Origin: Rhizobiales bacterium GAS188
GTDB lineage: Bacteria; Pseudomonadota; Alphaproteobacteria; Rhizobiales; Beijerinckiaceae
NCBI GenBank assembly: GCA_900104855.1
Contig: FNSS01000001.1
Coordinates: forward strand, 806,001 to 870,000
DNA length: 64,000 nt
Reading direction: 5' to 3'
Made by a program: the position numbers and the translations under genes. Shown one piece after another: positions 28,037 to 41,894 of the stretch. Each line of letters begins with the position of its first letter. Within the stretch, counting starts at the first letter, position 1. Below the pieces are notes generated by a model, which searched no databases, was not told where the DNA came from, and worked only from the letters and a program-made list of their open reading frames with translations.

Positions 28037-29022
28037 TCAGGCGCGATTTCATCTTGGTCATTTGCGCTGCCGCATGGTCGCAAGCAGCTTTCGGCCGGGA
28101 CAGCGCGCCGAGAATCGGCCGGATCGGATTTCTCGGCAACAATACGTCGTCTTCGACAAATTGGGGGCTTGAGAGCTTGCGCGCCGGGCTGCGCGCTCTG
28201 GGCTGGGCCGAAGGCAAGGACCTCGTCATTCTGAGCCGCTACGCCGAGGGACGCTCCGAGCGCCTGCCCGAACTCGCAGCTGAGCTTGTGCGGGAAAAGG
28301 TCGACGTCATTGTCACTTCAAGCGCGATATCGGTCCGTGCCGTCCGTGAGGCCACCACCACGCTTCCGATCGTCGCCGCGATCGTTGGCGATCCCGTGGC
28401 AGCGGGTCTCGTCCAGAGCCTCGCCCGTCCCGGCGGCAACGTCACGGGGCTGTCGATGGCCAATATCGACCTTTCCGGCAAGCGCCTTGAGCTTCTGAGG
28501 GAGGCGGCTCCGGGAATCGTGCGCGTCGCGGTCCTCAACGATCCCAGATTCGCGCCAAACGGAATGCCCGAGGTCGAATCGACCGCGCGAGCCTTCGGCA
28601 TCAAGCTGCAGGTGCTGGAGCTCGAGCCGGACGAGATCGAAAGCAGCATCGAGCGTGCCTTCGCGGCGGCCGAAGCCGAGCACGCTCAGGCCCTCCTCGT
28701 GTCGCCGACGACTTTCCTGAACCTTCAAGCCCGCAGGCGGCGGCTGGCGGAATTGGCGTTGCGGTATGGTCTCCCCAGCATGTACGAGGAGGTGTCTTAC
28801 GTCCGGGACGGCGGGCTGATGTCGTACGGACCCGACTTCAGCGACATGTACCGGCGGGCCGCCAGCTATGTGGACAAGATCCTGAAGGGCGCCAAACCGG
28901 GCGATCTTCCCATCGAGCAGCCGACCAAGTTCGAGCTGATGATCAATCTCAGGACGGCCAAAGCCCTCGGCCTCACGATCCCGCAGTCGATCCTCGCGCG
29001 CGCCGACGAGGTGATCGAATGA
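28033..29022 (+). CDS. ABC_sub_bind periplasmic binding protein, array member 6
   Basis: 329 residues. Export signal [21 protein letters not shown], twin-arginine-like and short. Landmarks: [200 protein letters not shown]. Its last codons overlap the start of the sensor kinase by the same ATCGAATGA used between the binding proteins, the strongest evidence that the array and the kinase are one system. Confidence 0.9.
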
Positions 29023-32000
29023 CCGCGATGACGGCCGAGCCCGCCGCTGCCGAGCCCGCCGAGGCGCGAGCTGAGCCACGGCGCGTGCGTCTGCGGCTGT
29101 CGCTCAAATTCGCTCTCGCTTTCGTGGGGCTCGTCAGCCTGCTGCTGATCGCCAACGGCGCCGCCAATATGTGGCTGAGCTATGACGAGGCCAAGCGCGC
29201 CGCCGTGCGCGTCCAGCAGGAGAAGGCGCAGGCTGCCGCTGAGCGCATCGACCACTTCGTCGACGAGATCGAGCAGCAGATCGGCTGGACCACGCATGCG
29301 CAATGGTCGGCAGGCACGCTCGACCAGCGGCGCTATGATTTCGTCCGCCTGCTGCGGCAGGTGCCGGCGATCACCGAGCTCGTCGAGATCGACGGCAAGG
29401 GAAAGGAACAGCTCAAAGTGTCGCGGCTCGCCATGGACGTGGTGGCGAGCGGCGCCGACTACACGGGCGATCCGCGCTTCACCAAGGCGGTGGCGGATCA
29501 TATCTGGTTCAGCCCGGTCTATTTCCGCAAGGAATCCGAGCCCTACATGACGATCGCCGCGGCGCATGTCGGCCGCAACCCCGGCGTCACGGTGGCCGAG
29601 GTCAATCTCAAATTCATCTGGGACGTGGTGCGAGCGATCAAGATCGGCCAGGCGGGTTATGCCTATGTGGTCGACGGTCAGGGCCGCCTCATCGCGCATC
29701 CCGACATCAGCCTGGTACTGCGCGATACCGATCTTTCCGGCCTGTCGCAGGTGGCGGACGCTCTTGCGGCGCGCCAGCGGGACGGGCCGCCCGCGACGAG
29801 CGTCGCCGCCGCCAGCGGGCCCGGGGGCGGCTCGGTACTCTCGGCCTATGCGGCGATCCCGCGGCTCGGATGGCTCGTCTTCGTCGAGCTGCCGCTCGGC
29901 GAGGCGATGGCGCCGGTCTATGCCTCGCTCCTGCAGAACGCGGGGCTCCTGGGGCTGGGGCTGCTGCTTGCGGCGATCGCCGGGACCCTGCTCGCCCATC
30001 GCATGGTGATCCCGATCCGGCGCCTCCAGGCGGGCGCCGAGCAGATCGGCTCGGGGAGGCTCGACCATCGCATCGCGATCAAAAGCGGCGACGAGATCGA
30101 GATCCTGGCTGATCGCTTCAACCTCATGGCGGGGCAACTGCAGGACTCCTACGCGACTCTTGAGTCGAAGGTTGAGACGCGCACCCACGACCTGGCCGAG
30201 GCGCTCGAGTTTCAGACCGCAAGCGCCGAGGTGCTTCGGATCGTCGCAAGCTCGCCCGATAACCTGACCTCTGTCTTCGATACGATGCTCCAAAGGGCAA
30301 CCGCACTGTGCGAAGCCAAGTTCGGCATCCTCTATTTGTACGATGGCGAGGAGGCTAATGCAGTGGCGGTCAGAAACCTGCCACCGGCCTTCGCCAAATG
30401 GCTGCGCAAGGGGCCGATCCGGCCGGGAGCTCAAAGCGGTCTCAGCGCCCTCGCCCGGACCAAACTTCCCGTGCATATCGAGGATCTGCGCGCGGACGTG
30501 GCCTATGCCGAGCGTGACCCGTTGCGCGTCGCGACAGTCGAGCTCGGCGGCGCTCGAGCCGGCCTCGGCGTGCCTTTACTCAAAAAGGGCGAACTCATCG
30601 GCGCCTTCGTGATCTATCGGCAGGAGCCGGGCTCCTTCGCCGACGCTCAGATCGCGCTTGTGACCAATTTTGCCGATCAGGCAGTGATCGCGATCGAGAA
30701 TGCACGACTGCTCGGGGAATTGCGCGCACGCACCGCCGATCTCGTCGAGACCCTCGAGCACCAGACCGCAACGAGCGATGTGCTGGAGGTGATCAGCCGC
30801 TCGCCGGCCAATCTCGAGCCGGTATTCGCGGCCCTACTGGAAAATGCCGTGGACATCTGCCGAGCGCGCTATGGGATACTCTTCGACTATGACGGCGTAG
30901 GTTTCGATCCGCGGGCCCTGTGCAATGTGCCGGCGAACTTTGCCGAGCATTTGCGGCAGCGCAGTCGATCACCGCCGGACCCACGGCTCGGATTGGGGAG
31001 AATCATTACAACCTCACGGCCAGTACACATCCACGATCTGACGACCGAAGAGGTCTACCGGTCGGGAGAGCCCCTTCGGGTTGCGACCGTCGAGCTTGCC
31101 GGTGCGCGCACCTGGGTCGGCGTGCCGATGCTCAAGGCCGGTGTTTTGGTCGGCGCTATCGTCATCTATCGCACGGAGGTGAACCCGTTCAGCGAGAAGC
31201 AGATCAAACTCGTCTCGACCTTCGCCAACCAAGCAGTGATCGCGATCGAGAATGCGCGCCTGCTCGGGGAGCTGCGCGAACGCTCGGCGGACCTCGCGCG
31301 TTCGGTCGATGAATTGACCGCAACCAGCGACGTCCTCAAGATCATCAGCCGCTCGACCGTGGACCTGGATACCGTGCTCAAGACGCTGGTCGAAACTGCA
31401 GCGCGGCTCTGTCACGCCGAGCTGGGGTGGATGTTCCGTCGCCGCGATGATCGCTACCACTTGGCAGCGATGTTTGGTGGCTCGGATGACCACAGGCAAT
31501 TCATGTTGGATCATCCAATCGGGCCCGGCCGCGGCACGTCGACCGAACGTGCCGTATTGGAGGGCCGAGTCGTTCAGATCACTGACGTGCTCGCCGATCC
31601 CGAATATAACCGTCTCGAAGGACAGAGGCTCGGTGGGCAGCGCACAATGGTTGCAGTGCCGTTGCTGCGCGAAGGCTCGCTCCTCGGCGTTTGTACGCTT
31701 GCCCGTACTCACGTCGAATCGTTCACGCAGAAAGAGATCGAGCTCTTGACGACCTTCACCGACCAGGCGGTGATCGCGATCGAGAATGCGCGCCTGCTGG
31801 GGGAGCTGCGCCAGGGCTCGGCCGACCTGGCGCGCTCGGTCGATGAACTGACCGCCACCAGCGACGTCCTCAAGATCATCAGCCGCTCGAGCACAGACCT
31901 CGACACCGTGCTGAAGACGCTGGTCGAGACGGCAGCGCGGCTCTGTCACGCCGACCAGGCCCACATGTTCCGGCGGCGCGAAGATCGCTACCACCTGGTG

Positions 32001-34148
32001 ACCTCGCTTGGTACTTCGGAGGAATTCCAGCAATATGTGGAAGGCCATCCATTCGATACCGGACGCGGCACAGCGACCGGGCGCGCCGTAGCGGAGGGAC
32101 GTGTCGTTCAGGTCGCCGACGCGCTCGCCGATCCCGAATATACTTATCTGGAAGGTCAGAGACTCGCCGGATTTCGCACGGTCGTCGCGGTGCCGCTGTT
32201 GCGCGAGAGGTCGCTCCTCGGCGTCATTGCGCTTCAACGCACGCGCGTCGAGCCGTTCACGGAGAAGGAGATCGAGCTCCTGACGACCTTCGCCGACCAG
32301 GCGGTGATCGCAATGGAGAATGCGCGGCTCTTCGACGAGCTGCGCGAACGTTCGGCGGAGCTCGCGCGATCGGTCGACGAGCTGACCGCGACCAGCGAAG
32401 TCCTCAAGATCATCAGCCGCTCGACCGTGGACCTCGACGCCGTGCTGACGACGCTGGTCGAGACTGCCGCACGGCTCTGTCACGCCGAGCAGGCGTACAT
32501 GTTCCGTCGCCGCGAAGATCGCTACCACCTGGTGACCTCGCTTGGTGCTTCGGAGGAATTCCGGCAATATGTGGAAGGCCATCCATTCGATACCGGACGC
32601 GGCACGGCGGCCGGGCGCGCCGTAGCGGAGGGGCGTGTCGTTCAGGTCGCCGACGCGCTCGCCGATCCCGAATATACTTATCTGGAAGGTCAGAGACTCG
32701 CCGGATTTCGCACGGTCGTCGCGGTGCCGCTATTGCGCGAGAGGTCGCTCCTCGGCGTCTTCACCCTTAGCCGTATGCGCGTCGATCCGTTCACGGAGAA
32801 GGAGATCGAGCTCCTGACGACCTTCTCCGACCAGGCGGTGATCGCCATCGAGAATGCGCGGCTCTTCGACGAGCTGCGCGAACGCTCGGCAGATCTTGCC
32901 CGCTCCGTCGAGGAGCTGCGGGCGCTGAGCGTGGTTGGCCAGGCGGTGACGTCGAGCCTCGATCTCAAGATCGTTCTGGAAACCATCGTCGCGCGCGCGG
33001 TGGAGCTTGCGGGCGCCGAAGGCGGCGCACTCTTCCGCTACAAACGGGCAAACCGCAGGTTCCAGCTCTGGCACGCGGCGGGGCTCGGCGAGGATCTGGT
33101 GGCTAAGCTGCGCGACCTCGCGGTGCATGAGGACGAAACCGCGCTCGGACAAGCCGCGCGCGACAATGCTCCCGTCGAGCTGACCGAGCTCGCGACCATG
33201 CCCAGCGCGCCGCTGCGGGACATTTTCACCGCTGCGGGCTTCCACTCGGCGCTCATCGTGCCGCTTGTACGCGGCAACCGCGTCTTCGGCGCGCTGGTCG
33301 TGCAGCGCCGCGCCGCCGGCCGTTTCGGCGGCAGCACCGTCGACATCCTGCAGACCTTCGCCAGCCAGTCGGTGCTGGCGATCCAGAATGCGCGGCTCTT
33401 CCACGAGATTGACGACAAGAGCCACCAGCTCGAGATCGCGAGCCAGCACAAATCGCAATTCCTCGCCAATATGAGCCATGAGCTGCGCACGCCGCTCAAC
33501 GCGATCCTGGGCTATGCCGAGTTGCTCGTGGATGGCATCTATGGCGAGCTTTCGGAGAAGGCGCGTGCCGTGCTCGAGCGCGTGCAGAGCAACGGCAAGC
33601 ATCTCCTGGGCCTCATCAACGACGTGCTCGACCTCTCGAAGATCGAGGCGGGCCAGCTCGCCCTCGCGATCGATGATTATGCGATCACCTCGATCGTGCA
33701 GTCGGTGGTCGCGGCGACCGAATCGCTGGCCCGGACCAAAGGCCTCTCGATCGAGGTCGCGGTTCCTTCCGATGCCCCGATCGGACGCGGCGACGAGCGG
33801 CGCCTCACCCAGGTGCTGCTGAATCTCGTGGGAAATGCGATCAAATTCACCGATAGCGGCTCGATCCGCATCGGAGTGCAGGTCGTGAAGCACGAGTTCG
33901 ACCTGTCGGTGAGCGACACGGGTTCCGGCATCGCGGAAGCCGATCAGGAGCGCATCTTCGGGGAATTCCAGCAGATCGACACCTCCGATACGCGCCGCAA
34001 GGGCGGCACGGGGCTCGGGCTTTCGATCTCCAAGCGGATCGTCGAGATGCATGGCGGCGCCATCACGGTCGAATCCGAACTCGGCAAGGGCTCGACCTTC
34101 CACGTCGTCATCCCGGTCCGGGCCGAAGAGGCGAAGGAGGTCGCATGA
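29019..34148 (+). CDS. Membrane sensor histidine kinase with extracytoplasmic domain, HAMP and six GAF domains
   Basis: 1709 residues. TM1 at about 27-50, an extracytoplasmic Cache-like sensor at about 51-303 ([61 protein letters not shown]), TM2 at about 304-331 and HAMP at 332-385. Six GAF domains follow (about 420-567, 600-747, 784-927, 962-1104, 1140-1284, 1314-1461). The third to fifth form a tandem repeat of exactly 178 residues, each introduced by the coil ELTATS(D/E)VLKIISRS. HisKA has phospho-acceptor H1487 in [11 protein letters not shown]; HATPase has [21 protein letters not shown] and [19 protein letters not shown]. There is no fused receiver; a stand-alone receiver follows, overlapping by four bases. 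Start overlaps binding protein 6. Expected to phosphorylate the downstream receivers on periplasmic and cytosolic cues. Confidence 0.93.
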
Positions 34149-34510
34149 GGAAGCGCATCCTGGTGGTCGAGGACACGGAGGACAACCGTCAGATCATCCG
34201 CGATCTCCTGGCCAGTGCCGGCTATGACATGATCGAGGCGGTCACCGGCGAGGAGGGGGTGGCGATGGCGGCCGAGCATCGCCCGGACCTGATCCTGATG
34301 GACATTCAGCTGCCCGTGCTCGACGGCTACGAGGCGACGCGCCGTATCAAAGCGGACCCGGCGCTCCGCCATATTCCGGTGATTGCCGTGACCTCTTATG
34401 CACTCTCCGGCGACGAGGCGAAAGCGCGGGAGGCTGGCTGCGACGCTTATGTGGCAAAGCCTTTCAGCCCGCGCCAGCTCCTCGCCAAGGTGCGCGAGTT
34501 CATCGGATAG
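34145..34510 (+). CDS. Single-domain response regulator (CheY/DivK-like)
   Basis: 121 residues, receiver domain only. Acidic pair ED at 9-10 (VVEDTEDNRQII), phospho-acceptor Asp52 (LILMDIQLPVLDG), Thr/Ser switch (AVTSYAL) and Lys (VAKPFSP). The sequence is close to DivK-type receivers. It overlaps the kinase stop (ATGA). Having no output domain, it should act as a phosphotransfer intermediate or an allosteric partner, either for the cyclase downstream or for other kinases. Confidence 0.93.
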   Translation: MRKRILVVEDTEDNRQIIRDLLASAGYDMIEAVTGEEGVAMAAEHRPDLILMDIQLPVLDGYEATRRIKADPALRHIPVIAVTSYALSGDEAKAREAGCDAYVAKPFSPRQLLAKVREFIG

Positions 34511-34531
34511 AGTCTTGTAGGGTCTCGACCA

Positions 34532-35647
34532 ATGCACGAGCCGCCCCGCATCCTGGTCGTCGATGATAACGAGGCCAATCTCGATATCGCCAGGACGCGC
34601 CTGGAGAGCCAGGGTTACGAAGTCGTGGCTGCGGTGGACGGCGAAGAGGCGCTGGCGCGAGTGCGCGACAGCGCGCCCGACCTCGTGCTCCTCGACATCA
34701 TGATGCCCAAGCTCGACGGCATCGAGGTGACGCGCCGCCTCAAGAACGACGCCTCGTTGCCCTTCATTCCGATCATCCTGGTCACCGCCAAGGCAGATGC
34801 GAAGGACGTCGTCGCCGGTCTGGATGCAGGCGGCGACGACTACCTCATCAAGCCTTTCGACCATGCCTCCCTGGTTGCGCGCGTGCGCTCAATGCTGCGG
34901 ATCAAGGCGCTGCACGACACCGTCGAAGCGCAGCGTGCCCAGCTGGAGACGTTGAACACCGGGCTCGAAGCGCGAGTCGAGGCCCAGGTCGCCGAGATCC
35001 AGCGCATGAGCCGCTTGCGGCGCTTCCTTTCGCCGCAACTTGCCGAGATGATCGTCACCTCGGGCGACAATCGCATCTTGGAGAATCACCGACGCGAGAT
35101 CGTCGTGCTGTTCTGCGACATGCGCGGCTTCACCGCCTTCTCCGAAACCGCGGAGCCGGAGGAAGTGATGACTGTCCTGCGCGAGTATCACAACGCCTTG
35201 GGGCCGCTCGTCCATCGGCACGAGGGCACGCTCATGCACTTTATCGGCGACGGGCTCATGGTGTTCTTCAACGATCCCATTCCATGCCCCGATCCGGCCG
35301 CGCGTGCGGTGCGGCTGGCGGCGGAGATGCGCAAAGCCATGGAGAGCCTTGCGGCGGAATGGCGCCGCCGCGGCCACCAGCTCGGCTTCGGCGTCGGTGT
35401 CGCCCAGGGCTACGCGACACTCGGCCAGATCGGCTTCGAGGGTCACGTCGACTACACCGCGATCGGCACAGTCACCAACCTTGCGGCCAGGCTCTGCGAT
35501 GCGGCGCACGACGGCCAGATCCTGGTCAGCCAGCGCGTCGCCGCCGCGGTCGAGGAGCTGGCCGCTCTCGAGGCGATCGGCGAATTGCCGCTCAAGGGCC
35601 TGAGCCGCCCCGGCATCGTCCATCAGGTGATCGGGCTTCGCGAGTAG
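34532..35647 (+). CDS. Response regulator with class III adenylate/guanylate cyclase output
   Basis: 371 residues. Receiver at 1-125 (VDDNEANLDIA, phospho-Asp in LVLLDIMMPKLDG, Lys in YLIKPFD), a coiled linker at about 126-165 (AQLETLNTGLEARVEAQVAEIQRMSRLRRFLSPQLAEMI) and a class III nucleotide cyclase domain at about 185-365. Both metal-binding aspartates are visible (VLFCDMRGFTAFSE and HFIGDGLMVFF), as is the transition-state pair Asn/Arg (VTNLAARLCDAA). The purine-specifying Lys site is not obvious, so cAMP versus cGMP is not settled; cAMP is the family default. It follows the receiver gene by 21 bases. It converts kinase signalling into a cyclic nucleotide pulse. Confidence 0.93.
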   Translation: MHEPPRILVVDDNEANLDIARTRLESQGYEVVAAVDGEEALARVRDSAPDLVLLDIMMPKLDGIEVTRRLKNDASLPFIPIILVTAKADAKDVVAGLDAGGDDYLIKPFDHASLVARVRSMLRIKALHDTVEAQRAQLETLNTGLEARVEAQVAEIQRMSRLRRFLSPQLAEMIVTSGDNRILENHRREIVVLFCDMRGFTAFSETAEPEEVMTVLREYHNALGPLVHRHEGTLMHFIGDGLMVFFNDPIPCPDPAARAVRLAAEMRKAMESLAAEWRRRGHQLGFGVGVAQGYATLGQIGFEGHVDYTAIGTVTNLAARLCDAAHDGQILVSQRVAAAVEELAALEAIGELPLKGLSRPGIVHQVIGLRE

Positions 35648-36554: not shown

Positions 36555-36824
36555 CCCACACTTGTCTCAGTTGAGCACCGCCCAGGCGGTCAGCAACGTT
36601 GATCCATGCGAGTTTCTGGAGAAGCCACATACTATGTGCCAAGGCGAACGTCACGGTCTCGCAAGAGGTACCCCTTCGGAGTTACGCTCGACGCAAGTGA
36701 CGACCCGCATGCGTCTTTTACGGAAGAGGCAATTTGCATTATGTGAAATTGAACCAACTTTCGCAGCTGCGCACTAACGAAGCGATACCGGCGGGACGCT
36801 TCTCACAAACTGAGACAGAGGCGG
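36555..36824. other. Intergenic region upstream of the repeat-led LuxR gene
   Basis: No gene-like frame. Local composition is more AT-rich than the surroundings (for example around 36730-36770). The promoter of the LuxR-type gene probably lies here. The region ends at the CAAGGATCGGGGGG repeats. Confidence 0.4.
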
Positions 36825-36890
36825 CAAGGATCGGGGGGCAAGGATCGGGGGCAAGGATCGGGGGGCAAGGATCGGGGGGCAAGGATCGGG
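36825..36890. repeat. Five tandem copies of CAAGGATCGGGGGG
   Basis: Copies at 36825-36838, 36839-36851 (one G short), 36852-36865, 36866-36879 and a partial 36880-36890, ending ten bases before ATG 36900. Every unit has a Shine-Dalgarno-like AAGGA and a run of five or six G, so the tract offers five possible ribosome-docking sites and five G-runs spaced eight bases apart, enough for a G-quadruplex. Confidence 0.9.
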
Positions 36891-37976: not shown

Positions 37977-38016
37977 CGGAAACCGAAACGGAACAACGCG
38001 TCGTGAGATACGTTGG

Positions 38017-38313
38017 ATGGAGAGACTTGGAAGCGAAAGACTTGGAAGCGAGAGACTTGGAATCGAGAGACTTGGAATCGAGAGACTTGGAATCGAGAGA
38101 CTTGAGATCATGGAACAGGATCACGTCTCGGCCTTCATCGGCAAAGTCCTGATATTGGGCGCGTTGCTGCGGGAGGAAATAGCGCGGGCGCCGACTGCCG
38201 ACAATCCATCAGAGCATTGGAGCAAGGCGGATGAGCTGGCCGCAACCTTGGTTCGCGCGGCTCAAGATGAGCAGCTCCGGCTGGCGCAAGATGCCGAAGA
38301 GAACGCACGGTGA
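38017..38313 (+). CDS. Small protein with a possible N-terminal (ERLGx)6 repeat
   Basis: Two starts are possible in one frame. ATG 38110 gives 67 residues (MEQDHVSAFIGKVLILGALLREEI...), a helical soluble protein seen in no family I know. ATG 38017 adds 31 residues: Met, then six pentapeptides, ERLGS twice, ERLGI three times and ERLEI, encoded by exact 15-bp DNA repeats that end at the base before ATG 38110. The frame is kept through all six repeats with no stop. No strong ribosome site is visible for either start. It follows the LuxR gene by 40 bases, suggesting co-transcription. Confidence 0.6.
   Translation: MERLGSERLGSERLGIERLGIERLGIERLEIMEQDHVSAFIGKVLILGALLREEIARAPTADNPSEHWSKADELAATLVRAAQDEQLRLAQDAEENAR
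38020..38109. repeat. Six tandem 15-bp repeats, GAGAGACTTGGAATC type
   Basis: Units at 38020, 38035, 38050, 38065, 38080 and 38095. Units 1-2 end AGC, 3-5 end ATC, and unit 6 has GAG for GGA. They lie exactly between ATG 38017 and ATG 38110. Substitutions are few and do not break the frame. Confidence 0.92.
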
Positions 38314-38385: not shown

Positions 38386-39819
38386 TCACTCGAACAGGCG
38401 AGATTGCCTGATGACGTAGCCAGCTGGCTTTTTCTCTTCCAGCACACCCTCGTCGACAAGGCGTTGCAGCCATGACTTGGCTTGGGCGGTCGAGACTTCC
38501 AAAACTGCCGCGACCTCGACGGCTTTCATCGGCGTTGTCATAAGCCGTCGAAGCATGTCACGCACGCTGGCGAACAGAGCGTCGGCAGGGCTGATTGTCG
38601 CTCGACTTATGTCTGCCGACACCGACCTATCGCCGTTCTCTTGCCCATTCTCTCGCCCGTTCTCTCGCCCACCCTCTGGCCTTGGTGCCACCGTCCCCTG
38701 GCTGTCGCCGGGCTTCGGCAAGTGAGGCTCTTCCCGGAAACCGGCAGCGGACCCCAACGACGTCTCCGAGGATCGCGAGGCATATGCAGCTGCCGGCGCC
38801 AGGTCGGTATCTGAGATCGGCGGCGGGTCATTTGGAAACAGCGAAAGCCCTGCCTGCATGGCGCTCGGCGTGCCCGGCATCGCCACGTCGAACAGGGCCT
38901 TGAGCGCATGGACATCTTGAGGGTTCGGCCACGCAATGGCGCCCCTCCGGCGCAAGGCGTCGAACCCCGCGGAGCTCTCGCCAGCCGATCGCACATAGAC
39001 GGGAACCATTCGAAGCTTGTCGAGCTGTTCGGTCGCACCGGCCCAGGTGCCGCCCTTGTTCACACCGCAGCTCACCACCAGCGCGACATCGGCAAGTGCA
39101 TAGATCAGCTTGTTGCGGCGCATGGCGTTGCCGACATCGAAGCTCACGCCGGGATCGTAAGGCGAGATCAACACCAGCTGATCGTTGATGAGCGCATTGC
39201 GATGCTCGCGGTTCATCGCGCTTTTTTCCAGGCTGTCGGCGAGCACGCCGATAGCCCTGCCGCCCTCTTCCAACGCGCCGAGCATTGCGGCTTGATCGGT
39301 GCCCCTCGCTCCGCCGGAAATGAGCGTCTTGCCGGCATTGGCGGCAAGGCGGCCAACACTCCTCGCATCGGCAATCGCCATGTCGTCGGCATTGCGGGAT
39401 CCGATGACCGCGAGCCCGCCCGTTTCCAGCAGGCTCATTTCACCGCAGCCATAGAGCAGCGCGGGAGCATCTCCTTGCAGCCGGGTCTTCAGGCGCCTCG
39501 GATAGTCGGCATCGGCAGAGCTTGCGACCCAGATCGCCCGGGTCTGCCAGCGCTCGACGGCTTGGCTCAACAGAAAGCCGCGTCCCAACAGGCTCTGCAG
39601 ACGGCTTTCTTCGATGACCGCTCGGCAGGCGCGGACCAGTTGTGCCGCATCCGCAGCCAGAAGATCCGCCGGCTGATGTTGCAAGTCACGCAAATGTCGA
39701 GCCAAGCGCTCATACTCGCTGGGCGACATCAGCTCCGGCGAGACAGCTTTGCGTCCGACCAGCAGCGGCTCTGTGAGCAGCAGGATCGCTCGGGTATTCG
39801 CGGAAAGGGCCGGCCTCAT
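38386..39819 (-). CDS. DprA/Smf-like protein, PsyrA (RqlI)-type partner
   Basis: 477 residues from ATG 39819, overlapping the helicase stop (ATGA). Middle part (about 120-320) is a DprA Rossmann-like nucleotide-binding domain: [58 protein letters not shown] and the [12 protein letters not shown] region. A low-complexity Asn/Gly/Glu linker ([15 protein letters not shown]) precedes a C-terminal winged-helix ([40 protein letters not shown]) like that of DprA. Much longer than housekeeping DprA, and partnered with a RecQ/phosphoribosyltransferase, so I read it as the DprA-like antitoxin component of a PsyrTA (RqlHI) defence pair and not as the transformation protein. Confidence 0.8.
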
Positions 39820-41894
39820 TGGTCGTGCCCCAATTGCGAGAGCGTTATCGGCCACACCTCGCCGCTGCCGTTCTTGCGCAAGAGCCAAGCCGACACGGTC
39901 AATGTCCAGCGTGAGCCGACCATATCATCGACCAGCAGCACCGGACCGTGGGGAAGGGGCTGGCCGACAAGTGCCAGCGTGCCATCGATATTGCGCGCAT
40001 GCTGGATGGCGTTCGCGAGCGTCCTCTGCTCGGGCCTGGCGCCTGTGTCGGCGATGACCGCATGAAACGGCAATCCGAGCGCGGCAGCCAGGCGCTGCGC
40101 AAAATCCGGCACCAGCCCGGGATGACGCAGCGATGGCACGCAGGTGACCCAGCTGGGCGCGGGCCGTGGATTCCACACCCTGATCATGTTCGAGCAAGCC
40201 GTGACGAGCCGGTCGGCAAAGCGGCCATCTTGGCGCTTGCCTTGCCTGACGAGACCACCCCAGCCGGCATCGCCCCAGATGCAAAGAGCCTTGCCGGGCT
40301 GTGCCAAGAGATTTCCCGGAATTTTCCCGGCCAGCCGGTACTTCGGCAGGCCACCGGCGGGCCATTGGAGCCGCGGCTCGATCGGCATGCTGGTACGGCG
40401 CAGGAAGGCGACAGCATCTTCGACGAGCGCCTCACTCGCTTTTGTCGGCAATGGAGCCAGCGCCGGAAGGCTGGCGGTGCTCGGATCGCCATCGAGCGCC
40501 CGGACGAGAAAGCCCATATGCTCGCCAAACGGCAGGCCGACATAGTCCTGCATCTGCCGGTGTTCGTCACGGCGCAATGCGGTGAGCCGTTCCGCACGTT
40601 CCCAGAACGCCTCGCTCAGCGTCGCGGCCGTGAGCTGCCATTTGCTGCCTTGCTTGGCGATGGGGGATGGTGATTCCAGAGACAGCAGGACGACCGTCTT
40701 CTCGATACGCCCCTTGCTCAGATTCACACGGCCGAGGAGCTCGGGAACTGACAATCCATTGGGCGCGGCCTCGAGCGCCTCCAGCACATCGGCGACTTCC
40801 TGTTGCGTCGGAAAGGCGCTCCTGATGAACCAGTCGGTGATCTGCGCGTCTTCTTCGCCGCTCAGCAGCACGCAATAGGCTGAGTCGAGTGCGCGTCCGG
40901 CCCGGCCCACCTGCTGGTAGTAGGCGACGACCGAGCCCGGCAGCTGGTAATGAATCACGAATGCCAGGTCAGGCTTGTCGTATCCCATCCCGAGCGCAGT
41001 GGTCGCGACCAAGGCTTTCACGCGATTGTCGAGCAGGGCCTGCTCCAGCTCTTCGCGACGATCACCTGTTTCGCCCGTATAGGCTTCGACATTGAAGCCC
41101 CGGCTCTTCAGCCAGTCGGCAACCTGGTAGGCGTCGCGTACCGTCAGCGTGTAGATGATGCCGTGACCCTCGAGCGTCGCGAGCTGCTCGGCCAACCAGG
41201 CCAGACGTTGGGCCTGGCTCGGCAGGCGTATGGTCTGCAATGAGAGCGAGCTGCGATTGAGGTCGCCGCGCGACACTTCGAGCTTCGGCCCGAGCACTGC
41301 GGCGAGATCCGCCATCACGCGGTTGTTTGCGGTCGCGGTGGTAGCCAGAAGCCTCAAATTTGCCGGCAAGGTCCTGACAATCCGCTCCAGCAAACGATAA
41401 TGGGGACGGAAGTCGTGTCCCCAGTCGGAAATGCAGTGAGCTTCGTCGATCACCAGCAGCGAGATCCTTGCGGCGATGCCGGCCAGGACTTCCGTGCGGA
41501 ACCGTTCATTGGCCAGCCGCTCTGGCGAGATCAGCAGGATGTCGATCGCATTGCGAGCGAGCTTGGTCTCGACCTCGGTCCATTCGTTCTGGTTGTCGGA
41601 ATTGATGGTGGCGGCTCGCACACCCATGCGTTCTGCCGCGGCGATCTGATTTCGCATCAAAGCGAGCAAGGGCGAGATCAGCAGCGTCGGCCCGTTACCG
41701 CCTTCGCGCAACAGCTTGGTGGCGATGAAGTAGACGAAGCTCTTGCCCCAGCCCGTCTTTTGCACGACGAGCAAACGGCCTCGGCCGTCGACGACGTGGC
41801 GAATGGCCTCTTCCTGACCGTCCCGGAAGGCGGCGCGAGGCTGCCCCGAGCCGATTCGCAGCAGCTCCAGAGCCCGTGCAGTGGTGTAGGTCAC
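39816..41894 (-). CDS. RecQ-like helicase fused to a ComF-like phosphoribosyltransferase domain, PsyrT (RqlH)-type
   Basis: 692 residues. SF2 RecQ motifs: Walker A variant [10 protein letters not shown] (about 43-52), [16 protein letters not shown] box [25 protein letters not shown], and motif [12 protein letters not shown]. After a helical region (about 400-520) the C-terminal about 150 residues form a phosphoribosyltransferase-type fold with the PRPP-loop motif [27 protein letters not shown], as in ComF. A RecQ-PRTase next to a DprA-like gene is the published PsyrTA toxin-antitoxin (RqlHI) arrangement that gives phage resistance; the helicase is the toxic partner there. First gene of the two-gene operon. 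Confidence 0.85.

Follow-up and report, generated by a model that had tools for sequence, protein, structure and literature searches.

A PsyrTA/RqlHI-type gene pair of a zinc-less branch, with a candidate sliding-clamp peptide in the tail of its DprA-like partner

PsyrTA takes its name from Pseudomonas syringae, and the corresponding pair of extraintestinal Escherichia coli is RqlHI. The E. coli RecQ-type pair is a demonstrated toxin-antitoxin system: RqlH toxicity requires the phosphoribosyltransferase (PRTase) domain, RqlI binds and suppresses RqlH, and the helix-turn-helix (HTH) is dispensable (PMC4670107). Toxicity of the toxin alone and its neutralization by the partner have been demonstrated only in the E. 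coli and P. syringae members (PMC4670107). ShosTA is reported to be one of the systems activated by a phage single-stranded DNA-binding protein (PMC10732053). In strain NILS69 the native PsyrTA conferred no detectable protection against phage (PMC12409345), and phage defence by RecQ-type PsyrTA is an annotation.

We analysed a 64,000-nt stretch, hereafter the window, of the 9.09-Mb genome of Rhizobiales bacterium GAS188 (C1:806001-870000), in which an initial annotation had proposed a PsyrTA (RqlHI)-type pair and a search with PsyrT and PsyrA models as its check. Two minus-strand open reading frames, at 38386-39888 and 39816-41894, make up the pair, and both PADLOC models match strongly. PsyrT aligns with its profile over the whole length (E 2.8e-270, 896 bits; residues 1-688 against positions 1-684 of 689), and PsyrA with its own over positions 3-397 of 398 (435 bits, E 7.2e-131). 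The pair is almost certainly a member of the PsyrTA/RqlHI family, and by analogy with the characterized pairs the window copy quite probably acts as a toxin-antitoxin system. Judged from sequence, the kind of system is known and the zinc-less branch to which it belongs is new, and it comes with a statistically well-supported prediction of clamp binding.

The gene pair and its relation to housekeeping genes

The toxin gene, psyrT (rqlH-like; 39816..41894, minus strand), has a GTG start and encodes 692 aa, with a RecQ-type SF2 helicase at residues 1-365, a zinc-less middle region and a C-terminal PRTase at about residues 511-692. Its partner, psyrA (rqlI-like; 38386..39819, minus strand), encodes 477 aa from an ATG, comprising an N-terminal helical region, a DprA/SLOG fold, a disordered linker and a winged helix. 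An overlap between the genes had been recorded at the outset together with a long DprA-like protein; the overlap exists, but its size and the protein's length had to be revised from 73 bp and 500 aa to 4 bp and 477 aa. We moved the psyrA start to the ATG at 39819 because the match to the PADLOC PsyrA model sets in only at residue 28 of the TTG-initiated, 500-aa frame, because this ATG forms an ATGA with the psyrT stop codon TGA (39816..39819, minus strand), and because homologues share the same spacing (-4/-1 between psyrT and psyrA in close relatives). The ATGA overlap likely couples translation of the two genes. The DprA-like partner lies directly downstream of psyrT in the same operon, and toxin-first adjacency is found in most of 80 relatives.

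Each of the two proteins falls in a superfamily that also has housekeeping members, so that the locus could be read as an ordinary housekeeping RecQ paralogue beside a second DprA serving transformation or repair. The full-length PsyrT and PsyrA matches speak against this, as does phylogeny. In a phylogeny computed from 32 PsyrA and 27 housekeeping DprA together with one ShosA, PsyrA and ShosA separate together from housekeeping DprA with a UFBoot of 100, rather than the DprA-like protein grouping with housekeeping DprA, the placement that the initial annotation had named as fatal to its proposal; PsyrA alone has a UFBoot of 85, with ShosA outside the PsyrA clade. The TIGR00732 dprA model scores window PsyrA at 94.6 bits, far below its curated cut-off of 191 bits. 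The host has separate copies of both, a housekeeping DprA (C1:6370699, E 4e-67) and a RecQ (C1:650377), and full-length PsyrT is absent from the 40 relatives examined across genus, family and order. We consider the housekeeping reading highly improbable and already refuted by the antitoxin tree.

A zinc-less helicase and an altered PRPP loop

The toxin had been described as a RecQ helicase with a C-terminal ComF-like PRPP-binding domain. The first half of this description is borne out by the full-length PsyrT match and by intact helicase motifs: Walker A (GWGKS, 41739..41753, minus strand; K51, equivalent to RqlH K49) and the DEAH box (41436..41447, minus strand; equivalent to RqlH D148) are invariant among aligned homologues. 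PsyrT matches RecQ and BLM helicases, and its AlphaFold2 model has a pLDDT of 90 and a pTM of 0.85. The second half stands in part. By homology the C-terminal domain is a PRTase, since 31 of 40 aligned homologues match PF00156, but the homologue C-terminal domains gave no match to the Zn-ribbon ComF family.

The four cysteines that form the RecQ zinc site in other RqlH proteins are absent from residues 458-483 (40446..40523, minus strand). Every aligned member of the branch at 65% identity or more, the window protein included, lacks the C...CxxCxxC site and has a 5-residue deletion there; beyond this branch, the site is at least partly retained in each aligned member, with all four cysteines present in nearly all. 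The two groups are set apart by a gap in identity (65% vs 55%). On the alignment, window PsyrT is from a zinc-less sub-branch of PsyrTA that lost all four RecQ zinc cysteines. The zinc site is present in E. coli RqlH and typical of reference members, and it lies outside the family definition. That a zinc-less version spans many phyla at 65-81% identity suggests that helicases of this kind can do without the RecQ zinc site.

The PRPP loop (residues 655-664; 39903..39932, minus strand) has the consensus VDDMVDSRWT among homologues. The window protein keeps the DD pair (RqlH D662/D663) and has a glycine, G660, in place of the last aspartate, the equivalent of RqlH D666; the Solimonas homologue (L033) does have this Asp. 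When positions are numbered along E. coli RqlH (698 aa, with K49 and D148 agreeing with PMC4670107), DIVD spans residues 663-666 and the conserved second Asp of the DD pair is D663, so that equating the window Gly with D663 was rejected. In RqlH the single mutation D663A abolished toxicity, and D666 was altered only within a quadruple DIVD-to-EVME mutant (PMC4670107). The window retains D663; therefore a loss of the D663A type is not its change, which falls at D666. We equate the D666 position with the general-base Asp that purine PRTases carry (Asp137 in HPRT, for example) and that enzymes like APRT do without. Because Gly replaces the last PRPP-loop Asp, the toxicity of the window protein is uncertain, and the toxin may be weakened or have a changed substrate.

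Such a change raises the alternative of an attenuated or re-purposed pair, in which the PRTase of PsyrT has lost its toxicity and the pair is retained for DNA repair, as a helicase with its DprA-like cofactor. Among paired homologues 86 of 95 have the last Asp, compared with 24 of 45 solitary ones (Fisher 1.6e-6); put the other way, it is missing from 21 of the 45 antitoxin-less, solitary RqlH proteins (L053, L080, L140-L143, L158-L186, L234-L272) and from 9 of the 95 paired ones. The PRTase branch of the window protein is 4.1 times its helicase branch (rank 5 of 94), and the window PRTase has no PF00156 match of its own, although most homologues have one. All this would fit attenuation. However, the window protein keeps D663, the one residue whose requirement for RqlH toxicity has been shown, it deviates at a single one of 27 near-invariant PRTase positions, and psyrA is uninterrupted, with the overlap onto psyrT that relatives also show. 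Faster PRTase evolution was also rejected as a feature of Asp-less paired members, since it holds for the window and one other member (L042) and not for the group (p 0.16). We regard attenuation as unlikely and continue to favour a toxin-antitoxin operon.

Loss of this Asp might also explain how RqlH is tolerated where the antitoxin is missing. We did not adopt this explanation: the pattern is only a trend, confounded by phylogeny because most solitary copies are actinobacterial.

The PsyrA tail and a candidate sliding-clamp peptide

The AlphaFold2 model of PsyrA (pLDDT 84) is folded over residues 1-309, followed by a disordered linker (residues 310-405; 38605..38892, minus strand) and a winged helix (residues 411-470; 38410..38589, minus strand), which confirms the winged-helix tail first suggested for the DprA-like protein. 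By fold PsyrA matches DprA (3uqz, 6e-15) and ShosA (8zva, 7e-14), and it contains a DprA-like SLOG domain (PF02481; 38938..39549, minus strand). The predicted linker, 96 aa, is the longest among 69 aligned PsyrA; the winged helix is missing in 16 of these 69 relatives. The Gly-Arg-Glu-Asn linker of the initial annotation proved to be a short array of about three 12-bp units (38632..38670, minus strand) within this longer disordered stretch. Two further tandem arrays lie near the pair, one of a 14-bp unit, GGCAAGGATCGGGG, at 36823-36890 of the window and one of a 15-bp unit, GAGAGACTTGGAATC, at 38005-38109, so that with the psyrA repeat there are three short arrays within 2 kb. The 15-bp unit was rejected as a genome-wide element, as it is found nowhere else in the genome.

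The beta-sliding-clamp consensus peptide is QL[SD]LF or QLxLxL, and among known clamp binders, Pol IV and Hda for example, both pentapeptide and hexapeptide forms occur. We searched PsyrA tails with the relaxed expression Q..[LM]F or Q..[LMF].[LF] over the first 45 residues after the SLOG domain, using shuffled tails as the control. It occurs in 25 of 68 non-redundant tails against 2.5 +/- 1.5 in shuffles, and about half of PsyrA tails have no match. Within the last 14 residues it is found in 9 of 50 long forms (0.6 expected) and, among forms lacking the winged helix, in 8 of 18 (0.8 expected); these shorter forms thus often end in a clamp-type motif. The reversed motif and variants with Asn or Glu are at chance in the same tails. 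When the first position was scanned over 20 residues, Gln gave a z of 15 and the next best residue 3.3, and in all but one case the motif Gln lies 6-20 residues after the SLOG end. Because the expression was drawn up after seeing the first linkers, we also used a small hold-out set of non-redundant new PsyrA, fixed in advance (n=6): the proximal motif is present in 3 of 6 (0.21 expected, p 2e-4; reversed motif, 0), and the motif in the last 14 residues likewise in 3 of 6 (0.08 expected).

The window protein has two candidate motifs. QAGLSLF (residues 322-328; 38836..38856, minus strand) starts about 10 aa after the SLOG domain and is a hexapeptide form in which position 2 is not the canonical L, and QSRLF(E) lies near the C-terminus (38392..38406, minus strand). 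In E. coli RqlI, QPELF occupies residues 320-324, and the ShosA of the P2-like phage P2_4C9 (L273:148-1197) ends in QLSLL. The motif was rejected as a PsyrA-only feature: some housekeeping DprA also carry similar motifs, with a weaker signal (8 of 53 vs 1.9 expected; Fisher against PsyrA p 0.013).

A side observation concerns housekeeping DprA of the window's order (L001, L188, L192, L193, L196-L198, L200, L201, L204, L206), which have a conserved LW[DE]ELDLF and/or QxxLF/QxxMF peptide between the SLOG domain and the winged helix. Because of this conserved peptide, DprA itself may contact the clamp.

From these patterns, a so far unnoticed peptide of the antitoxin family is a candidate hook onto the replication clamp; that PsyrA proteins are in fact tethered there we rate at even chances. 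A limited literature search found no link between DprA-type antitoxins and the clamp. The peptide could instead dock PsyrA on PsyrT or on RecA. Disordered tails often carry partner-docking motifs, and the PsyrA and PsyrT homologues of E. coli form a complex (PMC4670107). However, RqlI 1-320, which ends at the first residue of QPELF, still neutralizes RqlH (PMC4670107), so that the motif, cut off in this construct, is not needed for neutralization. ShosA has the same C-terminal motif, although its toxin has no helicase. Pentapeptide and hexapeptide forms both occur in these tails, as they do in Pol IV and Hda. Docking on PsyrT or RecA therefore seems to us a rather doubtful alternative to the clamp.

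The explanation we hold best, with moderate confidence, is a PsyrTA/RqlHI toxin-antitoxin operon of the zinc-less sub-branch whose PsyrA tail sits on the clamp. PsyrT would be a RecQ-type DNA translocase with a C-terminal PRTase, genotoxic if unrestrained, as shown for E. coli RqlH, and PsyrA would bind and restrain it, as shown for E. coli RqlI. One or two motifs in the disordered PsyrA tail are predicted from sequence to bind the beta sliding clamp, and the PsyrT-PsyrA complex would thereby be held at the replication machinery. There the DprA fold or the helicase might sense abnormal single-stranded DNA or takeover of the replisome by a phage, and release the transferase. Whether PsyrTA and ShosTA antitoxins in general are tethered to the sliding clamp by a conserved QxxLF/QxxLxL peptide, as replisome sentinels that free the PRTase toxin when the fork is disturbed or captured by a phage, could in our estimate go either way. 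A clamp-binding peptide, if real, would place a sensor at the replication fork and would fit the DNA damage and SOS response caused by unrestrained RqlH; this prediction reaches beyond the window locus.

Distribution, neighbourhood and known systems

Elsewhere in the class, full-length PsyrT occurs in 3 of 288 other genomes. PsyrT matches were found in 15 of 398 genomes sampled from the phylum of Solimonas and in 46 of 246 from that of Mycobacterium colombiense. The nearest homologues, 65-81% identical and mostly full length, come from Solimonas, Mesorhizobium, Sphingomonas, Yersinia nurmii and M. colombiense, and also from Chlorobi, Nitrospirae, Bipolaricaulota, Sumerlaeota, Planctomycetes, Verrucomicrobia, Chloroflexi, Acidobacteria, Spirochaetes and Cyanobacteria, so that the zinc-less branch reaches about 14 phyla; many of these records are metagenome-assembled genomes and several are isolates. 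This scattered pattern is what horizontal transfer of the pair would give. The GC content of the pair is in line with that of its surroundings. No full-length match was found in 50,697 phage records, and in IMG/VR there are three close contigs, one of which (L215) carries both genes and is of ambiguous source. Empty-site comparison found no syntenic counterpart in relatives, which are too diverged, and a search for direct repeats at the ends of the pair gave only a 9-bp match. The host genome is about twice the size of those of three congeners (4.7-4.9 Mb).

The pair had been described as having no other defence genes next to it, and this holds: the ten neighbouring window ORFs scanned gave no specific defence match, and the PADLOC matches near the pair to PycC, Csa3 and mad1 look like generic cyclase and regulator domains. 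At 29019-35647 of the window, a 1709-aa multi-GAF histidine kinase is followed by a response regulator and then by a response regulator-adenylate/guanylate cyclase; the weak Pycsar (PycC) matches of this cyclase look generic. Other copies of the pair lie within defence operons. On an E. coli plasmid it sits inside a type I restriction-modification operon, in the order hsdM-hsdS-psyrT-psyrA-hsdR (L139:2685-12764), and on an Acinetobacter plasmid inside BREX, as pglX-psyrT-psyrA-DUF262-pglZ (L150:429-10067). Among the zinc-less relatives, BrxL, PglZ and type I methylases flank the pair in some loci and metabolic genes in others. On pSymB of Sinorhizobium meliloti Ak57 (L145:7076-8427) psyrA is split into two overlapping frames beside an intact psyrT with the Asp present, and on an E. 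coli O157:H7 chromosome (L147:3441-5565) the annotation gives rqlI as intact and rqlH as a pseudogene with a frameshift and an internal stop.

Housekeeping DprA/Smf and RecQ share the SLOG fold and the helicase core with the window proteins, but they form separate clades and the host copies lie elsewhere. ShosTA resembles the window pair in combining a DprA-like antitoxin with a PRTase toxin, in the fold match to ShosA and in its QLSLL end. It differs in its toxin, which has an N-terminal HAD-like region and no helicase, and in the antitoxin-first order of the phage P2_4C9 locus. RqlHI of extraintestinal E. coli (PMC4670107), located on the chromosome between gntU and yhgN, shares with the window pair a toxin-first operon, a RecQ helicase with a C-terminal PRTase and a DprA-like partner with a C-terminal HTH; Walker A, DEAH and the PRPP DD pair are kept in both, and so is a clamp-type motif after the SLOG domain. 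Unlike the window protein, to which it is about 48% identical, E. coli RqlH retains all four zinc cysteines as well as the final Asp of DIVD. The models of PsyrTA itself (PADLOC PDLC03928 / PDLC03927) both match the window pair over nearly full length, and what sets the window pair apart from reference PsyrTA is its zinc-less branch, a linker longer than any other among those aligned and one altered residue of the PRPP loop.
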